Assembly (NCBI GenBank): GCA_030063045.1
Contig: JAQSEB010000242.1
Span: forward strand, 1-64,000
Direction: 5' to 3'
From: Pratylenchus scribneri
Taxonomy: Eukaryota > Nematoda > Chromadorea > Rhabditida > Pratylenchidae
Length of the DNA: 64,000 bases
A program made the translations under genes and the position numbers. Position 1 is the stretch's first letter; every line of letters starts with the position of its first letter. The notes beneath the pieces are model-generated. The model made no database searches, was not told the origin of the DNA, and saw only the letters and a list, made by a program, of their open reading frames with translations. This document shows, piece by piece, positions 318-42,486 of this stretch.

Positions 318-3300
318 ATGCTCTATGAAGAAAAAAGATCAAATTCAATGTTGCCATTATTACTTCTTAAATTATTTTTAATCTCACTGTTCATCAATAA
401 TGCTGCTACTATGGAAATTTTAGGCAGTGATGGTAATTAATTAATTATTTTTTGAATTAAAAAATATCATAGAAAAAAGTTTTAAATAATATTACCCAGA
501 GAATCACATTAATTTACAATAAATTGTTTTCATGACTAATTAAGCGGTTAAACTTCTTTTGGAATATTTCCATCCGAGCCAAATTTATCGCTCATACAAC
601 AAAATTCGAATTTCTAAGGGGTTATTCCTTGCATTCTTCAACCCTTCGGAGCCCCAGCGGTATGAGCTTGTCGCTTTTGCCACTACTAGGCTTAGAAGTT
701 ATCGGTTACGGTTTATTGTTTCGGCCCTTTCGGGGTTCAAAACTTTCTGTATCTGCTGGGGCTAGACACGGTGCAAGAAAAAAAAGGAATGGGAATTATT
801 AGCTGCCGGATCAGAAGAATAGCACTATGAAAACATAATAGAAAATCATAAATCTACTAGCTATAAGAAATCTCGTACATTATGTTAAAAATTTTTTAGG
901 CTTATCCATTTTGAAAACTATCTTGAGCTTAAAAAATTAAGTGAAAATCAAAAAAATATATGTGCTAAAATAATATGGAAAAATACATTTAATTTTCATT
1001 AATAATTAGAATTAGAACTAATTATTTTATCCCAATTATTGACGAGTTTTATCTATTTGTATATGAATTGTGAATTTAGGAGAATCCATTATAATTATTT
1101 AGATGTTATATATTTTTTGGTAATTTCATTTTTATTTTTTGCTAATTAAATATTAGTACTATTCAAACAAAATAAAATAAAATTATTTGATGCTATGAAT
1201 TTTTGCAGAATTAGGCGAAGATCCGGATGTGCAAAATATCAATGTTGTTTATGAAATTCTTTACGGTGATTTGAAAGATTTTAACGATCAAGTACATATG
1301 GAATATTCCCAAATGGAAATTGCTTTGTTCTTTTATAAAAAATTTTGTTTCTCAATTTTGACGGAATACAAGCATATGGAAAAGGAAACAGAAGAATTTC
1401 GTGAACATTTCCATCAAATTGAAAAAGATTATCAGGATTTCAGTAAACGAACAGTAATGTTGGACCACAAGATCTGCAATTTCTATAAAATGTTTGTGAG
1501 AATGATTTTCGACAAAATTTTGGATAAAAGTGAACATTGGAGGCACTATTTACATTTTCGGACTCGCCATTTATTTTGGCTAGATAATCAGGTTTTTAAT
1601 TATTTATTATATTAAACTAAATAATAAAAAATCAAGATTTAAAAGTTTGCACCGAATCATTGGCATTTAAAATTTATCAAATTGAAAAATATAAGCAAAC
1701 AAACATCATGAAAATCTCGAACAAATAAGAAACATTTCTCAATTTTTAGTATTAAAAATGAAAATTTTGTATTTTTATTTTGTGTTAATCAATACCATCC
1801 TCCGAAATCAGGGCTAAAATCGTATTCGAGAGTGTGAAATTATTAAGTGAAATAGATTTAAAAAGAAGTTAAATGAAATAATATAATATTAATTTAGTGG
1901 AAAATAAATATGGAAGAATTCTTCAAAAATAAAAAATTTAATTGGCAATCAAAAGAAAATTGCAAGAAAAAAGAATGCAATAATTTGATAAAATATTTGA
2001 CTAAAAATCCACAAAGTTATATGGCCAATTATTGGTCATTGAAATGGTTACTCGCCAATTCGTCAGAATTCATCAAAACTGTCAAGGAAAAATCTGATAA
2101 AAATTTTTTGGAAATGAAAAGACGTATTTTTATTTTAACCGGCCCAATCGGCTTTGATCGTTTGGAATTGACAAAAATGGATATTTTAAAAATTGGTAAA
2201 TGAATAAAAGTTAAAAAGATAAAAAATAAATCATTAATTTATGTATGCGGATATTTTTCCTTAAAAATAAAAATAAAATAAATTTTTTTGCAACATATTT
2301 TTAGATGAGATAAAAATCTATTAAAATTTTCAAAAAAAATTAAATTACTATATATTTTCATAATTCTTTTTTAATTATATTATTAACAGCCTGTAAAAGT
2401 AATTTTTTTTCAGGATCTCTAATTCCGGAATTTGTCCAAATCTGCTTGAAAAGGTAAGAAATATAAAATATTGAAAGCAATGGTAACAGTATCGTTCCAA
2501 TTTGCTATTCCTACCCTTCCCTCTCTTTTCTTAATTTTTTTTTTATTTTTTTTCAAATAATTTCGTATTATTTGACTCTTTGTTTTCTAAATTGTAAATC
2601 AAAAAATGTTTTCCATTATTCGACAGACGCCCTTAACCAAATTTTTCTTTAAAGTCAAAATGACAAAAATATTCAAAAAATATATGTTTAATATGTTTTA
2701 AATATAAAGATTTTTTTTCTATTTTCTGTAAATTTTTTTAGATTTTTAATTAATTTTTAAGAGCCGATTTATTGAGTGATTTTGTCGAGTCTATTTTGGA
2801 TTAATAATCTCAATGAATTTAAGCATTATTAATTTAAAACCATTATAGTAAATATGTAGATTACTTTTTTAAATAACTGAAAAATAAAATAGAAAATTTT
2901 AATACTTTAGTACAATGGAAATTCGATTCCATTCAGATATTTGACTGGGAATGAAGATTCAAGAAGATATCAATTAAGAATGTCAATCAGTTTGCTAATA
3001 AATAATTTCACCAAATTTCGTCAATCTATGTCTAGCACAAAGAAAAAAATTGAGGAAAACAAACAAAATTTGGCCAAATTTGATCGAATTTATGAAAAAA
3101 TTAATGGCCTACTCAGTTCAATTGCAGATTTGGAGGATATAAACATTTTAAATGATGAAGGGAAATTGGAACAAGTGATTAGTATTCTGATAAAATTATA
3201 TGAAATATTCGAAAATGGCAATCCGAAAATAAAAATAGAACATTTTGCCGCAATAAATGAAGATGATTTGTTTGAATCAAATTTGAATTTAGAATTGATG

Positions 3301-6300
3301 GAAAGGAAGTTTGTATTTTGTTAATTTAAATAAATTAGTAATTGGGAAAAGCAAAATTTTTTGACCGATAGTTATGGCTTAAAATTATTTTTAATGAAAA
3401 TGAATTTTATTTTTATTAGCCTATTTTTAATATAATTTAAGCATTCTGAGAATTAATATATAAATAAAATTAAAGTTTATAATTTATAACAATTTTTTAA
3501 TTTGATATCGAAATTTTCAAAATGGGTTAATTTAATTCCTTGATAAATTATTTATAATTACTCGCAAAAGTTATGTGAATGATGAGAGGTTCGGGAAGTA
3601 CTATTCTGCATTTAGAATAGAAGTAAAGGGGAGGGGAGGGTTAAAAAATAATTTTATAATTGATTAATCTTATTTAATATTATTGTAAATAAAAATTAAA
3701 CATTGATAAGGGAAATAATTTTGGCGGACGATTATTTTAAATTAATCGACAATCAATTGAAAAATGCTGATGAAGATATGGAAAATATTCTACAAAAAGG
3801 CAATGGCTCTATCTACAGACTGGCTTCATTGATTGGAGGGAGCGATAATCTGCTTGAAATATGGGCAAAATATACGGAAAAAATTCGATCCACAGAATGT
3901 AAGTTAATTTAATTAATATTTTTGAGGGATGGAAAATTATTTGTTTGAATTTGCTCTAGTTCAATGTTTTGAATATTTTACAGATTTTAACATCGATTTT
4001 GATAAAAGAATCAGAAAATTTTATGAAATATTACTTAATAATGAGAACTTAATGAGCCAATTTCTCAGCAGTGTAAATTTGAATATTATTTTGTTGATGA
4101 ATACTATCGAAAAAATCCTGGCTGAGAATAAAAACCAAAGTTTCAAACCATTATTAGAAGATTGGCGTTGTATGATGCGATTAAAACTCGACTTACTTTA
4201 TGTGAAACCAGCATTTATGATCAGAACTGACAAGGAAATGACTTTAACAGGTAAAAGAAAAGCAATTTTACACTTTTTAGTAAGAATATAGAATAATGTT
4301 CGATTAAATTGAATTTTTTGGTACGGAAATTGAAAAAGAAAAAAAACTAATGGACCATTCATTAATCGCAATTCTTTTTCCTTTAATTAAATCACAAAAA
4401 AACCAGAATTTCATTATTATTGTAGATATTACCTGAATTATGAATCGCATAAAATAATAATATATATTTATTTTATTTGCCCGATTTTATCTTTTTTGTT
4501 AATAAACAAAATATTTTAAACTCAATTTATACTTAACTTTCATAAATTTGCCTTAAAATGATATTATGTAAATTTTCTAAAATTTTATTTTGTTAAATTA
4601 CCATTAACTCATTAATTTTCATATGAATTATTTTACATCCCTCCCTATTCTAGACTGGGAATTGTCCTAAGGTTATCAGTGAAAATGTGTGAAATTAAAA
4701 TAGAAATAAAATGATAAAAATGAAACAAAAATAACTAGTAGAATAATTCCTATTTTAAAGAAAATTTAATATTGGAATTTACTGAAAAGTGGGCCAAAAA
4801 AAGAAGTTACGCAAATGAAATTCGAGCTGAATTCGAAAAATTGAACGAACAAAAGGATGAGATTCTAAAAAAAGACAATGAAAAGCCAGAACTTTCTTCT
4901 CGTTTCCAAGACATCCACATTGGACAATTGATAAAATTGGCTGAAGAAGACAAGCAAAATTATAATAATAATGAGGATCCACTTAGTGAGGCCAAAACAT
5001 TTAACTTTTGGCTTTTCTTCCAAGGTTAGATTTCCATGAATTGTTTTTTAGAAATTTAAGTTGGAAAAATTTTTTAAAAAATTTTGAAAGTTATTATTTA
5101 ATTCAAAAATTTGTTCACAAATCGTTTTTAACAAATCTCAATTCTCTAATCAAAAAAAGTTTTTGGTAGATATTATGTTTTGTGTCTATGTCATCCGATG
5201 AGCATTAATTTATGGCTCATTCGATTCGGACTGGTTGATTTTGTTTAATAAATGATAATTCTTACAAGATTGAATTGGTATAAAAAGCTGAAATTTCAAT
5301 CGGCCCTAAGCTCAAACTTAGGTTCAAAACCGACCAAATCTATTTGAATTAGAAATAGAAATCTTATAAATGAAATCAACCCCAACGAATATATTTTACC
5401 ATAAATTATGTTTTTCGAGAGTAAGTTAATGCCGAAATTGTAATTTTTAAAAACAAATTGGTTATTAGAAATTTATATTAAATTTTATAAAATTTTTAAA
5501 AATTTATGGATAAATCAAATTTTTTAATCTATTTCTCTTTCTTATATATTATTTTTTAGAATTATCTACAAATCGAGACTTAACATTATTAGCTAGACTG
5601 GCCATCATTTTTAATAAAGATGGAATGGAAAAATTGATGGAAAAAGTATCATTGTTAACTAAAATCGAAGAAAAACCAATGTCTGGACAAAAATTAAAGA
5701 AAAGGAAAAATAAAAAGAAAACATCAACAGAACAATCTATAAAACAAGGTGAAGGTATATTTTAAAAAATTATATTAAAATACGGAAAATTTTTCCAATG
5801 ATTTAATCAGGGTTTGGATCTAATTAAACAATTTATAAGAGTAAATTTTTTTCTGTAAATTTATAATCGAGAAAATTTAAAAATAATGCAAACTCTTATT
5901 CGAAATGATTTTATTTTTTTTTAAATTTTTTCATACCCTTTGATACCCTCATTTTCCGTATGCCCATAAGCTATTATTCAAGCCATTTCAGTTTCATTTT
6001 TAAATGAGGTTGAATTCCAGTTTAATAGTTATAGCCTAGAAGGAGATTGGTATAATCCTACATACATCGATAATATTCTCAAATTTCCTAAATATTTCTA
6101 ATTTTGGAATGATATATGAATATTTAGAGAAAGAAAAATAAGAAATAATTAAAAAATATAAAATTGCAAGAAATCATTAAATTCTCACTTAATTATTTTA
6201 GAACTTCGAAGTGATATGACTGCTGAGAGTTCAAGTAAAGAAAATGAATCATCAAAAGAAAAAGAGTCATCAAGAGAATCATTAGAGCAAACTTCTGCTG

Positions 6301-9300
6301 ATGTTCAATTGCATCTTCCAAACATAGAGCAAATTTTGCACACCACCAGCAGCATTGGACATGGCGAAAATTTGGCCAATGTTGTTGATGCTGGCTCATC
6401 AGATTCAACAAAAATTCATATTGAAACGAGCATTGATCAAACAAAGGCGAATTCTCCAGCAGAATGTAATTGCATTTTTGTCAAAATAATTTTTGCAAAA
6501 AAAAATATTAAAATAAAATAATATATTAAAATAATCCGCCAATATCCAAACATTCATTTGAATATAATTCTTTTTTTATATATATAATTCAGTTTCCTAG
6601 TAGGCAAAATTGAATAACTAATTTTCTTGCTCGATTAAAGATCCTCCCGCCACAAAAACTTTTTCTCCTAATTAAAGCGGGAATTTTATTTCCAATTTTT
6701 TAAGAAATTAAAAATGAATGGAATTTCGATATTATTTAAAATGAACAATAATTTATTATTTAAGAAGAATTTGGCAATCCCGGAGAATTATGATCCCACC
6801 AAAAAAATTTTTTACAAATTCTAAAACCACATTTGTAGGGGTAATCGGGAGCCTAGAACACGAATCTGACTTGCATTTTGTTATATCTCACCATCTTGGT
6901 AAGATATTGCCCACTTTTACCAAGTTACGCACAGGGGGGACCAAGGGCATTTTTGGTGTAAAATTTTTGTATAGTGAAATTATAGCTCAATCGCGCAGCT
7001 CGCAGAGCTGAATCTAAAGGTACCATTTTTATGAGGTAATATTGCAAAATAAGCAACTTATAACCAAAAGAATATTTATCTTGGTAATGTATTTAGATGT
7101 ATAACTTGTCCAATTTACATTATTACTTTATAAAAAGGTACCATTAGATTCAGCACATTAGATTCAGCTCGACAAGCTGCGTTGAATTTGAATGAACTAT
7201 AATTTAGCTATATAAAAATTTTCAACAAAAATCCCCTTGGTCCCCCTTTGCCTATCTTGGTAAGATATTGCCGACTTTTACCAAGATGGTGAGATATGAC
7301 AAAATACATGTCAGATTCGTGTTCTAGGCCCCCGATTACTCCTAGAAATCGGGTTATAGAATTTTTAGAAATTTTTTTGGAGGGACCATAATTCTCCGGG
7401 ATTGACAAGAATTTAATTTTTTATTACAAATTTTTAGTCTTAAGACCAATTCAATTAAATCTAAAGCTTTAAATGTCTCCTAATAAGAGATTTAATTTGC
7501 AATTATATTGAATAATGAATTTTGAAATGTGAAAATGTCGAAAGCATCTTTATATATATATAAATTAATTTTCTCTTTGTTTAAATATGCTTTCATTTCA
7601 TTCCACGAATTTTATGATTTTGTAAAAAATTCTGAAATTTCCACTTTTTTTGTCATTGAAAAAATTTTTCTGGAAAATTTTTTTTTGAGGAAAATTTTTT
7701 TAGAAAATTGAGTATAATATTACATTTTTTCATAAATATTTGAAATTAAAATTTTGAGAAATTAAATTTATTTTTAAAACACAAAATTTAATAGATTAAA
7801 AATTAAACATTTTTCTACATTGGATTGCAGTTTCTCCCACAACTGATGTGACAATTCCGAGCAGTGAAATGTATCAAAATAATTTGACTAAATCAAAATT
7901 AGAGTTGGTATTGAATGAATCCAAATGGTTAACGAATGATATTATTGATGCATATTTGGAAATGTTAATAAATGGAAATTTGTATTATAATGATGGCACT
8001 TTTGGCTTCATTCCCAGCTTTGTGATTCTTTCTTTCAAATATGAAACAAAATTCCCAATGGAATGGCTGCAGAAAACATTACAACAAAGAATTGCTGATA
8101 ATGTCCAATATTGGCTGATACCGGCTCATTTGAATGAAAATCATTGGGTATTGACCGTGATGGATGTTCATGAAAATCGACTTCACTACTTCGATTCTTT
8201 GAATCCAGGCAGCACAGATGAAAAATTCACCAGAGAAATTTTCAATATATTCCATTACTTATACATACAAATTGATCATCCTCTAAGTGGACAATTCGTT
8301 TTCTCCGAAAATGACAAACCCCCAACAAAGAGCAGAACAGATTTGCCCAAACAAAAAAATGGAATCGATTGTGGCATTTTCTTGCTTATGTATGCGCTGA
8401 ATATTTTTATAAAAAAGAGTACTGATGCTGAAATGCATATAATACAGGGAGGTATAAAAGAAGCACGAAAGAGGATTTACCGGGAGCTGATGTTAGATCG
8501 ATTGTAAGTTTATTTATATATCTATAGTTCATTTTTATATAAATTTCACAATGGGTTTTTATTTAATTATATAACCTAAAAAACTTTGCTTGATTTCCAT
8601 TCCATATAATATTTCAATTTCAACCTCATTAAATGACAAAATTGCAAAAAGTTTAAAAATATTTTAATAAAGGATTTAATTTTTTAAATAAGCTAATAAC
8701 ATTTTAAGAAGCATTTAGGCAATTTATAGCACATTGAAGCATGTCAATTTTGTCTGACTTTTTCCAAAATTCAATCAATTTAATCAATGAAACTTTTATA
8801 AAAATTTTTAAGTTTATAAAAACTATTTATCATATGCGAATAATTATGTTTTTTAATAAAAATTTAATTAATTTTAGCCTAGAGTATTTTTTGCATATTA
8901 ATTGAAAAATTAATATTTCGTTATTTTGTTTTGAATTTTAATCTCAATATTTAAATAAATATAGCTATGATACCGTTTAAATAATCGTTATTTTTTAGTA
9001 AGAGTAATTATATCGATGATGATGTATTAGAAAGTCTGTATCTGCTTCATTCACCGGAACAACAAATATCCGAATCAAAAAATTTGTTGCAATCCAAGCT
9101 TGGCGAAGCAAAAGAATCATCAAAAGTAAAAAATTTAAATTTAAATTCTATATTATTTTATAATTGTAATTATAAGTTCACCTGTTTTGTAATTTAACCT
9201 GAGCGAATTTAATCGAAATTTGATATTTTAGAATCAATCAAATTTCGATAAGAAGTTTTTATTAACAAAACAAAAAATATTAATATTTATTTTTAATTTA

Positions 9301-9373
9301 ATAAAATTTAAGATTATAAAATCCACAAGAAAAATCGAACGCCTTCCTTCAATACATATAATGCCGATGGAAG
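318..9373 (+). CDS. Secreted-type protein with N-terminal module and Ulp1/SENP-like (C48) cysteine protease domain; first half of a possible protease-poly(A) polymerase fusion gene
   Basis: Exons joined in phase: 318-432, 1209-1591, 1898-2195, 2414-2453, 2937-3308, 3711-3898, 3984-4250, 4761-5024, 5560-5754, 6202-6465, 7831-8503, 8999-9125, 9313-9373. Exon 1 encodes a signal-peptide-like leader (best start ATG 348, core LPLLLLKLFLISLF; ATG 318 is also in frame). Exons 2-9 form a roughly 600-residue module I do not recognise; it has motifs LKWLLANS and GFDRLEL and ends in a Lys-rich then Ser/Glu-rich linker. The 7831-8503 exon is a C48 domain: His in NENHWVL (8142), Asp in HYFDSL (8193), Gln and Cys in KQKNGIDCG (Cys codon 8370), so the catalytic set is complete. 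Known family role: cleaving SUMO or related ubiquitin-like tags, normally in nucleus or cytosol, which makes the secretion signal odd. The last exon ends in phase 1 and reads directly into 9764; alternatively this gene stops near 9.2 kb. Confidence 0.7.
559..775. repeat. GC-richer patch in intron 1 with 9-bp inverted pair
   Basis: This patch is clearly richer in G+C than its surroundings. AGCCCCAGC (650-658) is matched by GCTGGGGCT (755-763), with CCCTTCGG and CCCTTTCGGGG inside. It may be a small repeat element or a structured RNA fragment; I cannot assign it. An ORF across it has no ATG and lies inside the intron. Confidence 0.35.
6775..7404. mobile_element. 630-bp foldback (inverted-repeat) element in an intron
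   Basis: The left arm (6775-7013) and right arm (about 7180-7404) are imperfect reverse complements over more than 200 bp. Both ends carry CAATCCCGGAGAATTATG (left) or its complement, and both arms contain the CACCATCTTGGTAA core. There is no coding capacity for a transposase, so it is a non-autonomous foldback/MITE-like element. It lies wholly in the intron 6466-7830 just before the protease exon. Related sequence recurs around 35.9-37.4 kb. Confidence 0.85.
7831..8503 (+). other. Ulp1/SENP C48 peptidase domain exon
   Basis: One 673-nt exon carries almost the whole protease domain. Acceptor is ttgcag at 7825-7830, donor gtaagt at 8504. The order W-L-I-P, NENHW, YFDSLNP, then Q-(x)5-C-G is the diagnostic order of the Ulp1/SENP/DeSI-like fold, and spacing between His and Asp (17 residues) and Asp and Cys (59 residues) is normal for the family. 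Specificity for SUMO, NEDD8 or another tag cannot be read from the sequence. Confidence 0.85.
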
Positions 9374-9763
9374 GTAAAATTTAAAATAAAATAAAAATAG
9401 GATTTATTATTATAAAAGAAATATAGTTTCATTAAAAATCGATATTAGACCATAAAATTAGTAAAAAAAAATCAAATAATTATAGTAAATATTGAATTTG
9501 CAACGAGTTATGTTCAAAAAATGTCTAGTTAAATATATATGTATTTTGGAATTTTTAAATATATTTTAGTACATATTCAGCAATAGCTCATAATTTTATT
9601 TATCAGTTTTTAACTAATTTATACTATATTATATTATTGATCGAGTTATCAATTATTAGAGTAAGATTTTGGTAGAATACTTTATCCTCAATATAGCCAG
9701 CTGAATAATATTAAATGCAGACTCTCATAATTTTTTTAACGTTTCTTTTTTTTCAATCAACAG

Positions 9764-12700
9764 AACCAAAAGATAAGTGGACGGACATAGTGAAAAATGT
9801 ATATTATGAAGGAATTTTTGCCAAAGATTACAACGAATCCACACAAATGCATACGAAAAATGGTGTGAAAGTTGCACTTTTTCACTTTAAAAAATTGGCC
9901 TCCTCTATTTTAATGGAATTTATACAAAATTATATGGGCAAAATGGATGAGATATTCTGTAACGAAATAGAAGCCAGATATATCGAATATAGGGAATTAC
10001 TAAAGTTGGAAGGCAAAAATGTCGCACACTATGCTTGTATTTTCTTCAAATTTTTCATGCGATTGAAAAAGAATATAATTTTGACAAATTATATGGAATG
10101 GAACAATTATGCACGCTTCAGAATGCGACATTTTTATTGGATTGATCCCAAGGTATGGTTTATAAAATTTTTTGAATAATTTTTATGGCAATCTAATAAT
10201 AATGGTTTAACTAGAAAGGGATTCCAATAAAATTATACCATTCTTTTTGGGTTGGGTTTCTCGTATAAGAAAAACTAGTTCTACTTTCTATTCCAGTTTA
10301 AAATTTAATATCCGATCAAAATTATCAAATTATTAAAGTATTGAATGATGCACATTAAATTTACAAAAATTCATTTTAGTAATTCATGAAAAAATTTAAA
10401 AAATATGTAAATTAATTTGTCCCTCTTATTTTATTTTATAAAAAGAAATATGAAAATAAAATTAATATTAAAATTTAAATAATTTTATTAGATTTTGAGA
10501 CTCATATACATAATTATAAAATTTATTATTAATTTAAAATCTTCATCTCACAATTAATTCATTTTTTATTAAAAAAAATATAATAAAATGGCAAAGAATA
10601 TTTCGAACAACCTAAAATAATTTTAACATTTTTAGTTTGATGAGAGTATAAATTCCATCACGCCGGATCTAATAATGGAAGAAAAAGATTGCAATGAAGA
10701 AGAAATAAAAAAGGTTATTCGAAAGATCGCAATTGAACATCCATATTCGAATATTTCACATTGGTGGACATTGAAGTGGTTGTTACAAAATTCGCCAAAA
10801 TTCAAGAATGACTTAAATGCCTATAAAGGAGAAGAATTGTTGGTAATGAAAAAACGCATTTTTGATTTGCTCGGGGAAAATGGTTTTGATAGATTGGAAA
10901 TGGCCATTCCAGTATTGAAATTTCGTAAGTATTAATAAATAAATTTAATAATAGAACAGAATTAATCAACTGTATTTTTTAACAAATCAAAATTAAAAAT
11001 TTGATGAAATTTCTTAATCAATTTAAAAACCAAAAATTTTATTACTTAATACAGCAATTAATTAATTATTATTGAGTTAAGATATAAAATTTTGATGATA
11101 ATCTTTTCATGAGACATTAGCAGCTTTATCTTTTTACAAATTAAGCAATTATTTTTTAATAATTGAAAAAGTATGAGAAAAAAAAACTTCTAATTGACTA
11201 AAATCGGGCATTTTTCTTGGATTGGTCAATTAATAATTTTTGACCTGAGAGCAATTTTTGATATGAATAAGAGCTCTTTTAGCCCATTGCTATTATATAA
11301 ATTTTTTTTATTAGTTTAAAAGATTTCGTAGATATTGGACAATGAGCAACAAATATATTCGAAATTCTAGCAAGATATTCATAATTGAAAGCATACGCCT
11401 TATGTAAATTGTAAAAATTGTAGTAATATTCAATATATTTTTCCAATCATAAATCTTTTAAATTTTAAATTATTTTGAGCTTTAAACCAGAGTGTTTTAC
11501 AGTTTAAAATAATATAAATTATACCAAAAAGCTGGATTTTTTTCACTTAATTTAAATTAAAAATTTTAACAAATTTTTCCCTTAATAAATTTTCCTTTTA
11601 GATGATGGCATAGAAGAAATGACTTTAGTTAGTATAAAAAGGTTTTTATAATTAAAAAAGAATATGTTAAACATTTTTTAAAGATATCTGTCCGGAGGCT
11701 TGGAAGGGACGAAACATGAATTCCGAATTGCACTCATCTATTTTTTAAATATTTTCAATATATACCGGAAATCTTTTAGAGGTTCTGAATTGGATAAACA
11801 AAAATTGGATAATATTTATGAGCAAATTGTTGATGTTAAACTTGTTCAATTCATTGATGAGGAGCACACATTGGAAGAAGAAATGGATGAATTAAAAGAG
11901 GCAATTTGCATATTATTGAAATTTTTTGAAATGATTGGAAACGAATCCTTTCCCATTGTGTCGAAAGAAAAAGTTCTTTCTATCAGCTATGAACAAGCAA
12001 TGCAATGCACAGTTGATGAATTTGAAAGTACAATGGAAAGGTTATTTTACAAAATTTTCAGCTCTAAGCCATATTATAAAAAATAATTAATAAACTTAAA
12101 ATAGAAGGATCATAAATATAATGAATAAAGGAAAATATAGTAAAAAATTCATTACAATTTAGAATTAATTATTTACTAATAGCATCAAAAATTGTAAAAA
12201 AATAAATTAATTATTCAATCAAATTTTAAAAATTTCTAAAGTATAATTATCACAAAGCAAAAAAGTAAATTTTTATATTAAATTTAAGACAACGTTTTAT
12301 GCTGCAATTTTATTATTATAATACAATGGAAGATCATTTATGCAATGGGGACGAGCAGTTGTTAAAAATATTAAAGTATGAAGAAGGAGCAATTTATAGA
12401 TTGAAAGAATTAATTGGCTATGACAATCTTCGTGAATTATGGATGGATTATCTCGAAAAAATTAGGGACAGAAAATGTAAGTATTTGTATGTAATTCTTT
12501 AATTATATAGGAAATGAAATTTGAAAATTTTCAATCAAACGAAGAGCATTTAATTTCTTTTCTCGGTCTTTGTAAAATGACCTTACAAAATAAATTGGGA
12601 ATATTAAATATCGTAAATTCTCCAACTTGACCAGGCGGAATAAGTTGGAAAAATTAAATTCCGCCTATTCTCCAACTTGACCAGGCGGAATAAGTTGGAA

Positions 12701-15700
12701 AAATTAAATTCCGCCTATTCTCCAACTTGACCAGGCGGAATAAGTTAGAAAAATTAAATTCCGCCTATTCTCCAACTTTACCAGGCGGAATAATTTGGAA
12801 AAATTAAATTCCGCCTATTTTCCAACTTGACCAGGCGGAATAAATAGGAAAAATTAAATTCCGACTATTTTCCAACTTTACCAGGCGGAATAAGTTGGAA
12901 AAATTATATTCCGCCTATTCTCCAACTTGACCAAACGGAATAAGTTGGAAAAATTAAATTCCGCCTATTCTCCAACTTTACCAGGCGGAATAAGTTGGAA
13001 AAATTAAATTCCGCCTATTCTCCAACTTTACCAGGCGGAATAAGTTGGAAAAATTAAATTCCGCCTATTCTCCAACTTTACCAGGCGGAATAAGTTGGAA
13101 AAATTAAATTCCGCCTATTCTCCAACTTTACCAGGCGGAATAAGTTGGAAAAATTAAATTCCGCCTATTCTCCAACTTGACCAAACGGAATAAGTTGGAA
13201 AAATTAAATTCCGCCTATTCTCCAACTTTACCAGGCGGAATAAGTTGGAAAAATTAAATTCCGCCTATTCTCCAACTTTACCAGGCGGAATAAGTTGGAA
13301 AAATTAAATTCCGCCTATTCTCCAACTTTACCAGGCGGAATAAGTTGGAAAAATTAAATTCCGCCTATTCTCCAACTTTACCAGGCGGAATAAGTTGGAA
13401 AAATTAAATTCCGCCTATTCTCCAACTTTACCAGGCGGAATAAGTTGGAAAACTTAAATTCCGCCTATTCTCCAACTTGACCAAACGGAATAAGTTGGAA
13501 ATATTAAATTCCGCCTATTTTCCAACTTGACCAAACGGAATAAGTTGGAAATATTAAATTCCGCCTATTCTCCAACTTTACCAGGCGGAATAATTTGGAA
13601 AAATTAAATTCCGCCTATTTTCCAACTTGACCAGGCGGAATAAATTGGAAAAATTAAATTCCGACTATTTTCCAACTTTACCAGGCGGAATAAGTTGGAA
13701 AAATTAAATTCCGCCTATTCTCCAACTTTACCAGGCGGAATAAGTTGGAAAAATTAAATTCCGCCTATTCTCCAACTTTACCAGGCGGAATAAGTTGGAA
13801 AAATTAAATTCCGCCTATTCTCCAACTTGACCAAACGGAATAAGTTGGAAAAATTAAATTCCGCCTATTCTCCAACTTGACCAAACGGAATAAGTTGGAA
13901 AAATTAAATTCCGCCTATTCTCCAACTTTACCAGGCGGAATAAGTTGGAAAAATTAAATTCCGCCTATTCTTAAACTTGACCAGGCGGAATAAGTTAGAA
14001 AAATTAAATTCCGCCTATTCTCCAACTTTACCAGGCGGAATAAGTTGGAAAAATTAAATTCCGCCTATTCTCCAACTTTACCAGGCGGAATAAGTTGGAA
14101 AAATTAAATTCCGCCTATTCTCCAACTTTACCAGGCGGAATAAGTTGGAAAAATTAAATTCCGCCTATTCTCCAACTTGACCAAACGGAATAAGTTGGAA
14201 ATATTAAATTCCGCCTATTTTCCAACTTGACCAGGCGGAATAAATTGGAAAAATTAAATTCCGACTATTTTCCAACTTTACCAGGCGGAATAAGTTGGAA
14301 AAATTAAATTCCGCCTATTCTCCGACTTTACCATTCGGAATAATTTGGAAAAATTATCCGCCTATTCTCCAACTTACTCAGGCGGAATAATTTGGAAAAA
14401 TTAAATTCCGCCTATTTTCCAACTTGACCAGGCGGAATAAATTGGAAAAATTAAATTCCGACTATTTTCCAATTTGACCAGGCGGAATAAATTGGAAATA
14501 TTTAATTCCGCCTATTTTTCTACTAGACCAGGCGGAACAAGTTGGAAATATTTAATTCCACCTATTTTCCAAGTTACTCATCAGTTCGTAAATGTCATTC
14601 TCCCCTCTAAAATTGTCCCCAATAACTTCAAAATATTCATTTCATTATTCAATCCTTTATGATAAAAGAACCAAAAGGCTTATGGCTCGCACGGGGTACA
14701 TTTTTAATAAATTCAATTGCAGATTTTTCTAAATCACTGGATCATATAAGGCAATCATTTGAAATGTTTATTACTACAAAAGATGCCCAAATTCGACAAT
14801 TGAATAAAACAAAGATAAAAATATATATACTAATGCGATGGCTTGATCATACTTTGGAAAAATATGATCGAAGTTTCGGCGGATTACTATCGAACTGGCA
14901 TCTATTGTTTCGTGCCAATTTGGACCAATTAAGAGTGCATCCAAATCAAGTGAATACAATGGAAATTGATTGCACATTTAGGGGAGAAAATATTATTGAA
15001 TTTGTGAATAAATGGAAGTTTAAGACACGAGATGAACAACGAATTCGAGAAGAATATGATTTAGAACAAGAAAAAATTGACAATTTTATAGACAATTTTA
15101 ATACAAATGAGGCCCTACCTTTAATGGATGGATATCAATTAATTCTTGTGGAAACTATACAAGCTTTGGTCAATGAGGATAAAAAAGGGAAGAAAACAAA
15201 AATAGATACAGAAAAAGCAAAAGGAGTTAATATTTTACAATATTTTAAAGGTTACATTTTTAAATAATTCAATATAATTTTTAATTTCTTATTATGAAAT
15301 TAAAAAATTATTGATAATAAATTTAATTGCGATTTATCTAATTGCAGATCTTCACAATCATCCAGACCAAATTGTACGAATAGGCGAATTATTAAATATT
15401 GATTTTCTAAAACGTTTGTATGAACAATTAAGGATAAAATTTATTGCAAGCCAATTCAGTCAATTAGGTGAATTATCAATGCCAATAATTGATTTAGAAA
15501 TTGATGAGGTGAATTCATTGCAAAAGAATATGCCTCCTCTGGGTGGAAGTCCAAGAGAAGGCGGAATCTCAAAATCAGCCAAAAGGAAATTAAGAAGGAA
15601 TAAGTCAAGATTGAGTGCAACTTCAACCGATGAAGAGGAAAATATTTCAATAAAAGAAAGTGAAAGTGCGGAGGAAAAAATAGAAAATGTTCAAGAAATT

Positions 15701-18700
15701 CCAATAAGAAAAAAATTGGAGAGAAAAGGAAGCTCAAAGGAAGTCGCAGCAATGTCACCAAAAGGAAGCCCAGTGTCAATGTCACCAAAAGGAAGCCCAG
15801 CGTCAATGTCACCAAAAGGAAGTTCAGCGTCAATGTCACCAAAAGGAAGCCCAGCGTCAATGTCACCAAAAGGGAAAAAATTGGAGAGAAAAGGAAGCAT
15901 GAAAGAAATAACGGGAACGTCGTCACCAAAAGGATTGCCAAAAGTAAAAATTTTAGAAAGAAAAGGGAGCTCAAAGGAAATCGAAAAAAGCGAACTTGAT
16001 GAAAACAAAAATAAAGAAAAACAAAGACAAAGAAATTTAAAAAGGTTCAATAAGGAATTTGGAGAAACAACTCAAATTGTAGATCTTCGAGCAAAATCGA
16101 TAGAAATACAAAGGCCAAAAGACCAAATATTGCGAAGAAGTTTAAGCTTGGGAAGCAAAAGCAACCGCGAATTTATTTTTTGTAAGAAGAAAAATTGGAA
16201 ATAATTAAAATGTAGTAAAAAAGTGTAAATATCGAAAAGAGTATTTAAATATCGAAAATATTAACATTTTCAAAAATTATCCTTAACTCACAAATTGAAA
16301 AAAAAATTAAATTTAGTTTAATGTTTAACCAATTTTGATTTAATTTTGAACGAAAAATAAAATTTGTTTAAATGATAATAACTTAAAATTTTATCAAATG
16401 ATGGCAGATTATAATTAATTCAATGCATCTTGATTAGTTCTAGCAAATATTTTTAAAGTATAAATGCTTATAATTAATTTGATGTTTATATAATTCCTTT
16501 TTTTCGACAAATTGAATACTAACATAAGAAAAATAAATTGTTTTTTAATACAAATAAAATTACAGCTTGTCGATGGAATGATTATTTGCATGGACTTTAT
16601 GACAAATATTTGACTAAACCATCAATTAGATTGCGCACAATTTTAAATGCTTGTGTCTATATAAATGAAACATATGCAAAATTAACATTAACTGAGACTA
16701 TTTGCAATTATAAAAAAGTATGGCCAAACCCATTACCATGGAAAATTGATGAGCAAAAAGTCAAATTGTTGAGAGAAAAATGGCGTCAAATTATTCGTCC
16801 TTATTTATTAAGAAAAAATAATTCATTGGAAAATGTCAAGAAACTAATTGATGAATTGCATTCATTGTTTTATCAAATTCAAATTATATTAAATGCAGAT
16901 AAAGAAAGGACTTTTAATGAAAAATCAACTTTAGAGGAAATTACTGACACACTTTCACAAATGCATTCAATTAAATTGTCACATTTTTTGAGCATTAAAT
17001 CAAAAAGCAAACATGAAAAATGGATAAAAGAATTTATGAACCAGTCTAAAAATAAAATTTTTGGACTGCTCCAACAAATTGATGATTTGGCAATGGAGAT
17101 AAAAATTACTAAAAAGAATTATCAAAGATTTGTGGACCGAATCGAGGCATGGCATAAATATGAGGCACAAATGGCTTTGGGTATATAAAAATAATATTTT
17201 ATTTTAAGCAACATTTTTAAGATGAAAAACTTCTCAAACAATATAAAGTTAAAATGAAAGAGTATATTCCGCGTAAATCTCATAATTGGCAACAAATAAT
17301 GCTTAGCAATAAAGAAAAGGCAAGGCATTCGGCACAAACAAAAAAAGTATAATGAAATTTGAATTTTTAAATTTAAATAAAAATATTTTAGCTACAAGAA
17401 AAAATACAATTTGTTGATCGATACATCGATGAAACAGAAAGTGGCGAATATGAAAGGGCTCAAATTTTTAAAAAAGCAGTTAATGCAGTAGAAGAAATTA
17501 TCAAGGAATGGGTAATTTTTTTAATATTATATAAATAGATTTTAATTATTAGATGAAAAATTTTTTCATATTTATTTCTTTTATTTCTAAAATTTTAGAA
17601 CATAAATGCAGAATTATTGCATACTGGCTCCTATTTGATTGGTGCATTGACTGTTAATTCGGATGTGGACACAATTTGCATGTTACCAAAAGAAACTAAG
17701 CTAGCCGATTTTTTTGGAAATAGCAAATGTGAAATATCTGAACACAATCCACAAAATAAAAGCAAATTTATTAGGAAAAGAACATGCACTGATAATTCTC
17801 TCCATTGCAAATTTTGTTTGGTAGAAAATTAAAAATTTACAAATATTTAAATAAATTTAAAAAATAATTAAAAAATTTATTAAATATATAATTTACAGAA
17901 TCAGAATGTAATGAATTTGTCAAAAGTGGAGACTGCAAGAATACCTTTACTTAAATTCTCTTATTGCTTGGATAAAGATATTAATGTAAAAGTATTCAAA
18001 AATTGTGAAGAAAAAATAGAATTTGATTTGATGTTTGCTGCTCTCGATAAAAATTTTAAAGGAGTTTATGATATTGACGAATATATAAAATCATTGGATC
18101 AGATGAATGAAAATTCTATGAATGGTGAACAATTAGCAACTTATACTTCTTTGACAGGTAAAAAATATAAATCATGATTGCAATATATATTTAAATATTC
18201 AATATTTTACAATACTGCAATAAATTTTTAAATATTTTTATGTCATTTTAGATTTAACAAAAATCCTTAAATCCATATTCTTAAAAATTATTTATTTTAT
18301 TGTTTTAAATGAAACATTAATTACAATTCTGATTATTATTATTATTGAACTTTAGCAAGTATTTTTATATATTTTTTAAGGCTTTAAGCAAAATATTGCT
18401 ATAATTGGTGTATTACCGAAAAATCAGCGAAATTTCCGCATTACAATTGCCACTATAAAGCATTGGGCAAAAGGTAAATTTAATTAAAAATATAAATATA
18501 TTTTATATCTTTATTATATATAGTGAATTACATTTACAACCCCTTTCATGGATTTTTGAAAGGAATTGGAATAACAATTATGGTTGCCAAAATTGTTATA
18601 ATGTTCCCAAATGCAACAGTGCCCTTCTTATTACGAATGTTCTTCTTCTATTATTACGAATGGTATTAAACTTAAATTAAACATATATATAAATTATAAT

Positions 18701-20256
18701 ATAATATATAACTACAAGCAAAAAAGGCAAGTGAAATGTTTTTAAATGAACCCCACGAACGATATTATTACCGATGAGAAAATCTGTGCCAAAAATAATT
18801 TTTTTATTTAGGCCTTGGCAAATGCCTGTACAATTAATGGAAGTAGAAAAGTTTGCCATGAATGGACAACCATTATGGGAGAATGAAGAACGGTCGAAAA
18901 GAATGTTCTGGCATTCCCATTTAGGCATATCAACTGATTTAATGATGCCCATCATTACGCCATACCGTGAAGATGATATTTCCTTCTCCTCTTCAAATAT
19001 AATGACTGAGAATACAAAAGCCATTATTTTAAGGTCCATAGAAAATGGTATGTAAAATAAGATTTTTATTTATTAATATTTTTTGCAGCCTTATACAGCT
19101 TGAATCAAATTCAAATCGGACATTCTGCTGAATGGGATTTATTCTTGAATGGGATGAATATATCAAAAGAGGTAAATGATTTTTTAAATATTATAGAAAA
19201 TTTCATTATTTTAATGAATATTTTGAATTTTAAACATTTAAAAATATATTATTTTTTAAACTTATTTCTTTTAAAAATTATAGTATCAATATTTTCTTGT
19301 GATAAATTGCGGTCGAATGAAGCAAATTCTCTCGGATGATCTTTGTTCATTCACAAATTCACAATTGGCAAATCAAGTGATCTATAATATTGTAAATAAC
19401 AACAAAAATAATACAAATATTTATCGAGCACATATTATGCATGTAACGGGCGAAAGTAAAAATAAATGCATTGTGCTAAGACAAGGAGGACAAATCTACA
19501 GGTTGTAAAATGATTAAAAAATACTTTTATGTATTTTTTGTTGATTTTTTAAAAATATTCATTTTTAATGAATAAATTTTTTGGTCACGATTTTTTTTAA
19601 CTTTTAGTTTTCTTTTCTATTCTGGCTATATTCCTCGATTTTATCATTTAGGGATAATCATTATATCAAGATAGGTTCCATTAAAAATAATAAAGCAAAA
19701 AGTAGAGAATAAATGATTTCTTTTTGTCTAAAGATAAATATCAGCATTCATATTTCCGTGATTTGTAGATAGAGAGTCTAAATATTAAAATTATTTGCCT
19801 AAATATTATTTAAAATATAATATTTATTATATTTAGCAAAAAATATATTAAATAAATAAAATTTATTTTTTTCAAAATTTGAAATACACAGTTCCTATTA
19901 TTGCAAAACTTGGCTTGTTGGAATCAAATTTATAGAAGGTAATGAAATTAAATTCGACAAGCAATCATTCGAAAAGATATTGGCTAATGAAAATGAAAGA
20001 ATTATTCAAAAATATATTGGTATATTGAGAAGAAAAGAAAATAAACAAGTAAATTTAAAATTTCTATTATTTTATATAATAGAAATATTTTTAGAAATTT
20101 TACGAATTTATAAAGAATGAACAAAATTATTTCTTAATGTCAAAATTTGTCATACTTGATGAAATCTCTCAGTGGTATGAAAAATAAAGTTTTTAAAAAT
20201 TATCTTTTAATTCCAGGGGAATTGATCTTCATGGCTCAGAGATTGTGCATCAATGA
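9764..20256 (+). CDS. Second module copy fused to a eukaryotic-type poly(A) polymerase; second half of a possible fusion gene
   Basis: Exons: 9764-10152, 10636-10924, 11602-11641, 11684-12040, 12289-12476, 14723-15250, 15348-16181, 16566-17180, 17222-17346, 17392-17511, 17599-17820, 17899-18157, 18381-18473, 18524-18662, 18812-19047, 19089-19171, 19284-19501, 19892-20048, 20095-20174, 20217-20256 (stop TGA). The first six repeat the module of the upstream half with the same phases. From about 17392 the protein follows nuclear poly(A) polymerase: GSYLIGALTVNSDVDTICML gives the nucleotidyltransferase GS and DxD (Asp codons 17662 and 17668), the third carboxylate is in IEFDLMFAAL (18025), then NFRITIATIKHWAK, LMMPIITP and the RNA-binding-domain region. 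All catalytic carboxylates remain. If this is a separate gene it could start at ATG 9715, giving leader MQTLIIFLTFLFF, although that stretch also looks like a polypyrimidine tract before the 9764 acceptor, or at ATG 9361. Confidence 0.7.
12621..14575. repeat. 50-bp minisatellite, about 39 copies
   Basis: Units of exactly 50 bp begin TCCAACTTTACCAGGCGGAA and end ATTCCGCCTATTC. Each unit holds two dyads: TCCAACTT with AAGTTGGA, and GGCGGAAT with ATTCCGCC. Variants (GA or TA after CTT, AGGCGG versus AAACGG, AATT versus AAATT) recur in blocks, suggesting multi-unit duplications. The 3' end is more diverged, including a shortened unit near 14340. The array fills most of the intron 12477-14722 of the poly(A) polymerase half; the paralogous intron (3899-3983) is only 85 bp. 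Confidence 0.95.
15752..15880 (+). repeat. 27-bp coding tandem repeat (MSPKGSPAS, about 4.5 copies)
   Basis: Within exon 15348-16181 the nonapeptide MSPKGSPAS is repeated, with single changes (PVS, PAS, SAS, PAS), in a Lys/Ser-rich linker. Either side, a longer unit of the form KKLERKGSSKE occurs at about 15710, 15885 and 15945. SPK motifs are possible proline-directed kinase sites; the region is predicted disordered by composition. It joins the second module to the poly(A) polymerase part. Confidence 0.85.
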
Positions 20257-27360: not shown

Positions 27361-29370
27361 ATGTCATTGGAATCAATTTTGTTGCTGATTGCCTCTCTCC
27401 GCAATCAATTCATTATTTTCTCCATTGCTATCAGTTTGCCCTCAATTTTGCTGTATTTGGCCGAAATATGTATCATTTTGCGGCATAAACAATTCCGTAA
27501 CAAATCATTTTATTTGCTTATCCTCATCAGAGCAATCCCAGTAAATATAGAAATTATTTTAATAAATTAATTCTTTATTTTACCCGGCAGAATTTAATCT
27601 ATACCTTGAATTCCTATTATTTCTATCGAATGCCCATTTTATTTGGCTATTTTCTTTATCCAATCTATCAAAATCTGCCAAATTGGATGTTACGAATGGC
27701 ATTTTTTTTCGTACGTAGCACATTTTGGGCTGATAATTTGGCCACAATTTTTATTCTTCTAAATCGATGGACCGCAATCAAAATGTCTCTACGCTACAAA
27801 ATGGTTCATGAAATTTTATTAATTAATTAATTAATTAATTAATTAATTAATTTAATAGATTTGGCGAAAATATCTAATTTATGCAACAATCATAATATAT
27901 GGACTCCCATCGATTGTATCTTTTGAACATTTTTTTGTAGATGCTTTAAATCAAATTGATATGGCAAATGGCGACAATTCGCCTACAAGTTTCTATATTG
28001 TGCAGGAACATCAGCCCACATTCCCAATAATTGCTATCTTTCCATCCACCTCCATGATTATTTGTATTTTTATTAACATCGCCATTTTATATGAATATCG
28101 AAAACATCAAAAAATAATAGCAGAAAATAAGGAACAAACAATACAGAAAAAAGTGAATACAAAATTGTTGGCCTATGCATCAGGGGTGGGGTCGAAATTT
28201 CGATTTTCGATTTCGATCGTCGAAATTTCGATGTTTTAGTTTCGATTCGATTTCGATTTCGAAAAGCGTCGAGTTTCGAAAAAATTTCGAAAAAGGCAAA
28301 GGGGGGACCCTTTGCTAGTTTCAATCAAAAATTTAGTATATTTTTTGAAACGAATTCCTTTTTTACTTAAAATTTTCTTATTTTTGCTCAAAATATTTAG
28401 TTTTTTAATTTATTTTTCAATTATTAAATCATCAAAATATGTTTTATAATTGTTTTAGGAATAAAAAATGAAAAGTTCAAGATTTAATAATATTATTTTG
28501 TTGATAATGGCCAAAAAATAATGTAACATGGAAAGAACCGCACCTAAAATAATCATCGAAAAAATCTACCAATTAATTTGTCATTTAAAAAATATCAAAA
28601 TAAAACCTTATGAAAAAAAAAAAACCAAAAATTTCTTAAAAAAGAAAAGCTAAGTTCGGTTGGGTATTGGTTTCATTGGCAAACTATTTTGGCCAATAAC
28701 AAAACAAGAAAATTTGGAAAAGTTTCTTTTATTTCACAAAATGCTAAACCCTACAATTTTATTTTTGAAATATCATTGAATATTATTTTTGGATAAAAAT
28801 TTCACTTTTTTGTATTTTCAGAAATTTTTTTCACTTTTTAAACGATTTGAAAATTTTTTTGAAAAATTTCGATTTTCGATTTCGATTATCGAAATTTCGA
28901 TGTTTTAGTTTCGTTTCGATTTCGATTTGGATGTGAGTTTCGATTTCGAAGCAAATTTCGATTTCGATTTTTTTGAGTTTCGACCCCAGCCCTGCTATGC
29001 ATTGATTACATTTGTTGGACATATTATTATGGCGATATATTATGTGAATATTAAATATTAAAAAAATTATATAATTGACAAAATATTGATAGATTAATTT
29101 TTTTAAATTTATATTTTGATTCAGGTTCTAATTTACATTGTTGGAACCATGAATAATATGGCATTGATTGGTGCCGTTTATACCCATTATCCATGGACAT
29201 TGGACATTGGTATTGTAGTTTTACCAAGTTGGCTCCTTTTCTGGGCCAGCGATTCGTTCCGACGCCAAATGATCGCCGATTTTCTGCCAAAATGTTGTCA
29301 AAAAATATTCAAGAAAAAAAAGACGGAAATTACGCCAGTCATTAATTTGAAATTGAATGGAATTCATTGA
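27361..29370 (+). pseudogene. Srg-like serpentine chemoreceptor with a hAT MITE in exon 3
   Basis: Exons 27361-27540, 27591-27803, 27859-28180 plus 29003-29043 (split by the insertion) and 29125-29370. The protein follows the intact paralogue at 41309 through all exons: start MSLESILLLIASLRN, TM3 end FILLNRWTAIKMSLRYKM, IWRKYLIYATIIIYGLPS, and tail LPSWLLFWASDSFRRQM. The NR-W-T-x-I then I-W-x-K-Y-L and LPS pattern resembles Srg receptors. Exon 3 is interrupted at KLLAYA by the 814-bp MITE. The gene is broken unless the element is spliced out: GT at 28186 and AG at 28988-28989 would leave six extra in-frame residues. Everything else is open, so the damage is recent. Confidence 0.8.
28181..28994. 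mobile_element. hAT-type MITE, 814 bp, with perfect 8-bp target duplication
   Basis: The termini are CAGGGGTGGGGTCGAAA and, at the other end, the complement of CAGGGCTGGGGTCGAAA. Flanks are an exact CTATGCAT duplication (28173-28180 and 28995-29002). CAGGG ends and an 8-bp duplication are hallmarks of hAT elements. Both subterminal regions are built of TTTCGATTTCGA words; the middle is AT-rich without coding capacity. Confidence 0.93.
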
Positions 29371-39824: not shown

Positions 39825-41308
39825 ATTATTTAAAATAATTTTTACTTAATTCTATTTTCTCATGATTATAATATTTCTTTATTTTTCTTTCGGATAATAT
39901 TTCAAAAAAAAACAATTTATTTATTTGTTATTAGTATTATTTTTAATAGACTATTTTTTGAAATCTATTTAAAGATTTAATTATGATTTTCCAAAATAGA
40001 TGCAGTTTTAATAAAATTTAGATATGATCCAAAGTAGAACATGACCAAATATGAGTGTATAAGAAGCAACAATATTACAAATGCTGCTGAATTATCTGGA
40101 TAAAAAAATATTTGATCAATATAAATATGAAATTGTCTGTCACCAATGCTTTTGAAATCAAAAAAAATAATCAATTAATATTTTTATAACACATAGCTTT
40201 TCAATTTTTTATTTCTACCTATAATTATTTAGAATTTTATATTAAAGTAAAATAAATATTAATAAATAAATTTTGAAAGTGTCAAATTCAATCTTGTCTG
40301 GCTGACATCAGAAAATAATTTCAAAATTTTTTCAGGCAAAAAATTATTTAAATCTTTTCCAAACAAATATTCATTCCAATTAATAAAGTTTAAACAAATA
40401 AAAATTATATTAATTTCAATTTCCCATAATAGATTTAAAATGAACTCTAAAATGATGATCAATTCTTTATTAATAATACTTATTTTCTTCCCATTTTATG
40501 CTAAATTATTCTGATTAAATATGAACTAAAAATAATTTTTTAAAATAAATGTTATAAAAATTGTTTGAATTAGATTTTTAATATAAAAAAACAAGGAGGA
40601 TCATCTAGATCTAGCTTATATCCGTTGACGATTCTAAAAAAAATGGGAATGGAAATTTAGACAATTACATAATAATATAAATGCAAAACTGTTTCAAATT
40701 TTAAATGAAAATATAATATAAAATATAATAAATATGTATATGTTTATTCTACCAAATTTTTTATGTTTTTCAAACATTTTTAGGTTTTACATTTTTTTTT
40801 CCAAATATTTGGTGTATCTTAAAATTTATTATTTTTTTTATACATTATGTTTCTATTTAAAATAATTTGTTCTATGTTGCTTAAAATAATTTATTCAAAA
40901 CATTAATATTTATTGCCAATTAAAAAAATTTCAGAATTTGTATTGTATTTGAATTTGCCTGTTGATGGAATCGCCAAAATGTGCATGATTACAATTAAAA
41001 TAACAATTCTTGGTATTTCACTTCAAATTCCAAGCAATTATTTCGGTATTCACACAAAATAATACATTTTCTTTAATTATGTGAAAAATATTTGTAACCC
41101 TTTTAGTTATGGGCACCAGAGATTATGAACAATCTTAAAAATACAAAATGTCCAAATAAAATAAAAACCTTTAAAAGAACATTTCATTTCAAAAATTTAC
41201 TTCTCTAGAATAACATTTTTTTTAAAAAATATATTTAATTTCTGCTATGGCTAACTTGTGATTAATGACAATTTAAATAATATTTTTCCCTAGACTTTGT
41301 CCACAAAA
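39825..41308. other. Intergenic, very AT-rich
   Basis: No convincing coding sequence. A weak open stretch after an acceptor-like sequence near 40935 has no partner exon. Confidence 0.5.
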
Positions 41309-42486
41309 ATGTCATTGGAATCAATTTTGTTACTGATTGCCTCCCTTCGTAATGAGTTCATCATTTTTGCAATTGCCATCAGTTTGCCTTCCATTTTGTT
41401 ATATTTAGCCGAAATATACATCATTTTGAAACATAAACAATTTCGTAGCAAATCATTTTATGTGCTTATCCTATTCAGATCAATCCCAGTAAATATAATT
41501 AATTATTTTTTAATAATATTAATTCCTCTCCAGAATTTAATCTACACCTTGAATTCATATTATACTTATCGACTGACAATTTTATTTGGCTATTTTTTGT
41601 ATCCAATTTATCAAAATCTCCCAAATTGGATGTTGCGAATGTCATTTTTTTGGACTCGTTATACAATGCTGGCTGATAATTTAGCTACAATTTTTATTCT
41701 CCTAAATCGATGGACTGCTATCAAAATGCCTGCACGCCATAAAATAGTTCATGCAATTTTATTGATTAATTAATTTTTTTATTCTAATAGATTTGGCGAA
41801 AATATCTTATCTATGCTACCATCACAATCTATGGACTTCCAATAATTTTTTCTTTTGAACATTTTTTTGTAAATGCTTTAAATCAAATTGATATGGCAAA
41901 TGGCGACAATTCGAATAATAACTTTTTTATTAAACAAGAACATCAGCCTAGTCTCCCAATAAATGCAATATTTTCTTCTGTTTTCATGCTTATTTGTATT
42001 TTCATTAACATCGCCATTTTATATGAATATCGAAAACATCAACAATTAACAAAGACTCAAACAAATCAGAAAAAGGTGGATACCAAATTGTTGGCCTATG
42101 CATTGGTTACATTTTTGGGACATCTTTTTATGGCAATGTATTATGTGAATTTTGCATATTTTTAATATAAAAAATTATATAATTGAAAAAAATTGATTTC
42201 TATTTATAAATTAATTTTTTTTTTAATTTTAATTCAGGTACTAATTTATATGATTGGAACGATGAAAAATTTAGCATTGATTGGTAGCATTTATATCCAT
42301 TATAATTGGGTAATGGACTTTGGCAATGTAGTTTTGCCAAGTTGGCTCCTTTTCTGGGCCAGTGGTTCATTTCGACGCCAAATGATCGCCGATATTATGC
42401 CAAAATGTTGTCGAAAGATATTCAAGAAAAATATGAATGAAATTACTCAAGTCATTAATTTGACGAATTTGAATGGGACCCATTGA
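41309..42486 (+). CDS. Srg-like serpentine chemoreceptor (7TM GPCR), intact copy
   Basis: Exons 41309-41488, 41534-41746, 41791-42144 and 42238-42486 give 331 aa, all junctions in phase 0. Start ATG 41309 matches the paralogue at 27361. TM1 FIIFAIAISLPSILLYLAE; TM3 end FILLNRWTAIKM; then IWRKYLIYATITIYGLP; TM6 LLAYALVTFLGHLFMAMYY; TM7 VVLPSWLLFWASGSFRRQM; and a Cys-Cys basic tail (KCCRKIFKK), a possible palmitoylation site. The pattern is closest to nematode Srg receptors; the family call is moderate. Exon lengths 180 and 213 are identical to the disrupted paralogue, and its uninterrupted exon 3 shows what the MITE split there. Confidence 0.87.

Follow-up and report, generated by a model that had tools for sequence, protein, structure and literature searches.

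Proteases of the Ulp1/SENP family (C48; e.g. SENP1 and yeast Ulp1) and canonical poly(A) polymerases (PAPs; e.g. bovine PAP and yeast Pap1) are both well known apart. In the genome of the plant-parasitic nematode Pratylenchus scribneri, we identified a locus at which both are predicted to be joined, together with two copies of an uncharacterised module of ~700 residues without Pfam match. Like Ulp1/SENP enzymes, the protease displays the domain match and the H-D-Q-C set; unlike them, it lies inside a 2,752-residue model, behind a hydrophobic leader, and is joined to the modules and to a PAP. The polymerase shares with canonical PAPs the nucleotidyltransferase and central domains and three aspartates, but forms the C-terminal part of a fusion; a match to the RNA-binding domain PF04926 of Pfam was not obtained at E 0.05, this region being diverged. 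SUMO proteases also stand out in another migratory plant-parasitic nematode, Ditylenchus dipsaci, in which SUMO-specific protease genes are reported as enriched, the available part of that report making no mention of domain fusion (PMC10866927); in the available part of a further paper, SUMO appears only as an expression tag (PMC5919673). No description of a SUMO protease-PAP fusion was found among the literature matches listed, a weak negative as the bracketed spelling poly(A) may be missed.

The window, i.e. the whole 64,000-nucleotide stretch analysed, corresponds to C242:1-64000, loci being named by contig and position in the same P. scribneri genome. The genome searched comprised 227,248,964 bases in 276 contigs, for a published assembly of 227.24 Mb in 276 contigs, whose annotation drew on RNA-seq (PMC10138993). 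The rebuilt splicing of 33 window exons produced a frame of 8,259 nt and 2,752 residues, with a single stop as codon 2,753 and AG/GT at all internal exon boundaries, so that our reconstruction reproduced the totals claimed by an earlier, sequence-only reading of this DNA. Its features are the following:

318..432, + strand: exon 1, encoding a hydrophobic N-terminus (MLPLLLLKLFLISLFINNAA) that resembles a signal peptide by eye, and ending in a phase-1 donor (reconstruction, hydrophobicity rule)
1209..6465, + strand: module copy 1 and Ser-rich exon 10 (reconstruction; C98 frame; alignment with copy 2)
1209-1591, 1898-2195, 2414-2453, 2937-3308, 3711-3898, 3984-4250, 4761-5024 and 5560-5754, + strand: exons 2-9, module copy 1
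6202-6465, + strand: exon 10, Ser-rich
7831..8503, + strand: exon 11, Ulp1/SENP-type C48 protease domain, donor GTAAGT overlapping an in-frame TAA (Pfam, SENP1 similarity)
8999..9125, + strand: exon 12, 5' portion of the linker, entered in phase 2 and left in phase 0 (127 nt, 4 of which differ from C98)
9313..9373, + strand: exon 13, 3' portion of the linker (IERLPSIHIMPMEE), entered in phase 0 and left in phase 1 (61 nt, 8 of which differ from C98)
9764..15521, + strand: module copy 2, carried by exons 14-19 and running into the first part of exon 20 (end approximate)
9764-10152, 10636-10924, 11602-11641, 11684-12040, 12289-12476 and 14723-15250, + strand: exons 14-19
12589..14572, no strand: minisatellite with 39.7 copies of a 50-bp unit, within the intron that separates exons 18 and 19
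15348..16181, + strand: exon 20, which completes module 2 and continues into the Lys/Ser-rich stretch
16566..17346, + strand: exons 21-22, conserved region ahead of the polymerase
17392..20256, + strand: exons 23-33, PAP nucleotidyltransferase and central domains, stop at 20254-20256

Exon 20 also contains a 27-nt coding repeat (15750-15873). Elsewhere in the window, long Ser/Thr-rich repetitive open frames, mucin-like by eye and broken by 25-bp tandem repeats, occupy 48760-58415, and a pair of similar ORFs at 27859-28239 and 41294-42165 would encode multi-pass membrane proteins, which look like receptors by eye.

The proposed succession of module, Ulp1, module and PAP was confirmed in the window sequence. 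Exon 11 matched Pfam Peptidase_C48 (E 1.7e-15, 57.9 bits for a cut-off of 20.7) and SENP1 (E 1.1e-10), and the residues that we take to be catalytic are all present (H900, D917, Q970 and C976 in the 2,752-residue numbering). By profile match and catalytic set, this domain is a predicted SUMO-type protease. The polymerase half matched PAP_central (E 2e-22, 79.9 bits, cut-off 27.1), NTP_transf_2 (23.5 bits, cut-off 21) and bovine PAP (E 8.5e-26). Alignment to the latter placed the three presumed catalytic aspartates at Asp 2266 and 2268, in a weak first segment, and at Asp 2361, in a strong one; by its domains and these aspartates, this half is a predicted poly(A) polymerase. Rfam gave no match at gathering scores. 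The two module copies aligned over 734 columns with 28% identity (E 8e-71), and neither matched Pfam at E 0.05. Searched against a set of 5.8 billion proteins, residues 780-1560 of the full model found no homologue at E 0.001, and module 2 none at E 0.1, a weak absence since a PAP query itself recovered 4 proteins only, a sign of low recall. Profiles of two module-2 exons against solved structures reached best E values of 0.47 and 0.032. The first exon of the module is predicted to fold as a helical structure (pLDDT 81), for which no match stood out in a fold search, and the model of exon 19 reached a pLDDT of 53.5. That the modules bind a target or a ribonucleoprotein (RNP) is a guess.

A collinear copy of the gene at C98:508000-534000, with aligned pieces 66-90% identical, contains counterparts for all 33 window exon peptides. 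Its frame, built from the nearest compatible AG/GT keeping the frame open, spans 33 exons, 8,262 nt and 2,753 residues with one terminal stop, and 31 of the 33 exon ends fall at the expected place, exons 31 and 32 being off by 6 and 9 bases. A chance joining of frames is ruled out by this full 33-exon frame. Between window and C98, the overall dN/dS was 0.38 (Nei-Gojobori point estimates, without significance test), with values of 0.47 for module 1, 0.36 for Ulp1, 0.35 for the linker, 0.40 for module 2 and 0.28 for the PAP, and weaker constraint in the Ser-rich exon 10 (1.21) and the Lys/Ser-rich stretch (0.78).

A third gene, at C55:1614000-1634000, read over its whole length (23 exons, 5,202 nt, 1,733 residues), joins a module 1 copy to a PAP in frame, one of its exons retaining a linker remnant of 23 residues. 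Since its module resembles window module 1 and its PAP the window PAP, our inference is that it derives from a loss of Ulp1 and module 2. The exon 21 peptide is 88-91% identical among window, C98 and C55; no counterpart of it was found in five other upstream-to-PAP stretches searched (C16, C198, C203, C22 and C127). In exons 25-33, the peptides of C98 and C55 are 80-100% identical per exon, versus 48-84% to the window, an excess closeness that exons 21-24 do not display, and the dS between window and C98 reaches 0.77 in exons 23-33 versus 0.06-0.17 elsewhere. The end of the window PAP (17899-20256, exons 25-33), being much more diverged than the rest of the gene, thus probably originated from recombination or conversion with another copy.

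Genome-wide, we counted at least 93 matches to the Ulp1 exon, at least 55 to the module exon and at least 88 to PAP_central (exons or pieces), which suggests a large expansion of both the Ulp1 and PAP families. The table of locus order drew on 30 Ulp1 places out of 93, namely the 19 closest plus 11 more, on every one of the 55 module places, on those 34 PAP_central places out of 88 whose contigs carry such loci, and on one further PAP. At the 19 close loci (Ulp1 exon at least 50% identical to the window), a same-strand module was systematically found downstream, about 1.2-2.7 kb from Ulp1; a PAP domain was present within 30 kb at 18, the exception lying 12 kb from a contig end, and a module within 12 kb upstream of Ulp1 at 14. 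The 11 more distant Ulp1 places showed both module and PAP at one, and neither at ten. For 15 of the 35 tabulated PAP rows, the 25 kb upstream contained no listed Ulp1; a module lay in the 20 kb upstream for 13 of these rows (12 loci). The order module-Ulp1-module-PAP, as read from sequence, is thus recurrent in the family, with further modules at some loci; the module-PAP join was read base by base in the window, C98 and C55, and rests on order elsewhere. At C127:800334, the Ulp1 exon is immediately preceded by a leader-like peptide (~400 nt upstream) and module 1 went undetected, which may indicate a copy devoid of this module.

Within the family, the position of the catalytic Cys is occupied by Cys at 14 of 20 loci and by Ser at six (C203:893754, C46:1916819, C16:477475, C21:1538301, C21:1718630 and C21:1888295), these last being possible pseudoproteases or enzymes with altered chemistry. 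Asn replaces the catalytic Asp in C98 and C109, among the 13 loci read at that position. The donor of the Ulp1 exon is kept at 17 of 20 loci, as GTAAGT with an overlapping in-frame TAA (15) or as GTATGT with TAT instead (2), and its usual form is absent from the other three.

The junction between Ulp1 and module 2 bears on the case for a single gene. The phases of the two window exons proposed as a bridge (8999-9125, 2 to 0; 9313-9373, 0 to 1) were reproduced. In 12 of the 13 other loci tested, the bridge is a single open exon whose phases allow entry from the Ulp1 donor (phase 2) and exit at AAG/GT into the module-2 acceptor (phase 1), with a conserved 3' end of the type SKLERLRSIHEIPKE; the frame is broken at the thirteenth (C21:1888295). 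Since the 5' end of these single exons resembles window exon 12 and their 3' end exon 13, the window pair appears to correspond to a single ancestral linker exon interrupted by an intron. The linker script reported phase-compatible sites only; six noncoding stretches used as a chance control gave 0, 5, 0, 0, 0 and 0 candidates and five real linker intervals 6, 1, 1, 1 and 1, so that the evidence rests on the enclosed conserved peptide, compatible phases alone not being rare. In C127, C16 and C22 (3 of 3 tested), a single exon without stops covers the end of module 2 and the same linker, and closes with a phase-1 donor that precedes a further module. No linker match was found at 4 of the 19 close loci (C151:156727, C98:443648, C151:100598 and C55:819029), nor at the distant C109:427534, where the Ulp1 donor is present; weak traces were observed at three of these four and at C109. 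C151:156727, C98:443648 and C55:819029 form a divergent class without the usual Ulp1 donor and linker, with a weak RLRSIQ trace. Overall, the Ulp1-linker-module join is predicted from the sequences to be intact in 14 of the 15 loci with a recognised linker.

A separate transcript or trans-splice site starting at 9361-9764 had been named as the sign of a second gene, and two ATGs of this interval were compared with other loci. ATG 9715, which would open a second protein with its own signal peptide (MQTLIIFLTFLFF), is ruled out, as it has no counterpart in C98, and ATG 9361, present in C98 too, where it opens exon 13 immediately after the acceptor, is not generally conserved, the 13 other linkers carrying IPKE or IPTE (11) or MPEE (2) there. 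Because two genes need a stop and a start, both absent from the single-exon linker loci, one gene producing one inferred mRNA and one protein appears very probable, and the initial preference for a fusion over tandem genes is supported by the C98 frame and the conserved linker. Counting against one gene are the donor TAA, through which intron retention would end the protein at Ulp1, the loci devoid of donor or linker match, the broken linker of C21:1888295, and the little constraint in exon 10 and in the Lys/Ser-rich stretch; the Ser-for-Cys and Asn-for-Asp replacements count against this reading too. Two adjacent genes, module-Ulp1 and module-PAP, perhaps in a trans-spliced operon, could use TTG-TAA at 8502-8507 as a stop and the ATG of C98 exon 13 as a start, and would accommodate the four close loci without linker match. 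However, the open, phase-compatible single exon at 12 of 13 other loci, the donor retained in the two loci with TAT in place of TAA, the lack of general conservation of the putative starts and the coding linker remnant of C55 make this arrangement quite improbable.

We also consider it unlikely that one primary transcript gives several products, through retention of intron 11 (an Ulp1 form ending in DRL) or through cleavage at the linkers, possibly by the protease itself. Ulp1-like proteases process viral polyproteins, and both the donor overlapping a TAA at 15 of 20 loci and the repetition of the SKLERLRSIHEIPKE motif at module junctions would fit such products, but no Gly-Gly pair was found in the linker exon peptides examined, and self-cutting cannot be general since at least four Ser-for-Cys loci (C203, C46, C16:477475 and C21:1538301) retain an open linker. 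As for a decaying, functionless duplicated family, the broken linker and the Cys to Ser changes would be expected of it, whereas frames open through 33 exons in both window and C98, with a dN/dS of 0.38, leave it very little probability.

For this probable fusion gene, the destination of the product is less clear. The signal peptide of the sequence-only reading stood in part: the hydrophobic character of exon 1 follows from the hydrophobicity rule, the likeness to a signal peptide being a judgement by eye. By the same rule, a hydrophobic first exon with a phase-1 donor occurs at 5 of 7 loci, window included, the remaining two giving weak tblastn matches (E 1.6 and 0.24). Because of this leader, of the many diverged copies and of the plant-parasitic owner, entry into the secretory route (secreted or ER-routed), possibly directed to the host, may be entertained as a possibility, albeit a doubtful one; a secreted poly(A) polymerase would be biochemically odd. 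The chain would comprise the hydrophobic leader, a helical module 1, the Ulp1-type SUMO protease, a short linker, module 2, the Lys/Ser-rich stretch and the PAP. More tentatively still, its modules would hold a target or RNP, its protease would remove SUMO or a related modifier from the bound target, and its polymerase would tail the RNA of that target, a mechanism that we regard as rather unlikely.

The broadest picture, of multi-copy modular fusion enzymes combining modifier removal and RNA tailing in one secreted chain, with a variable number of modules and a junction linker motif perhaps acting as a processing or docking site, appears unlikely as a whole. If the two enzymes are joined, SUMO removal would be tied to RNA tailing in one chain. 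Mammalian PAP is regulated by SUMO, and this would offer a rationale, open to test, for pairing these enzymes. The family also shows natural variation in its number of modules and in whether its proteases carry the catalytic Cys.
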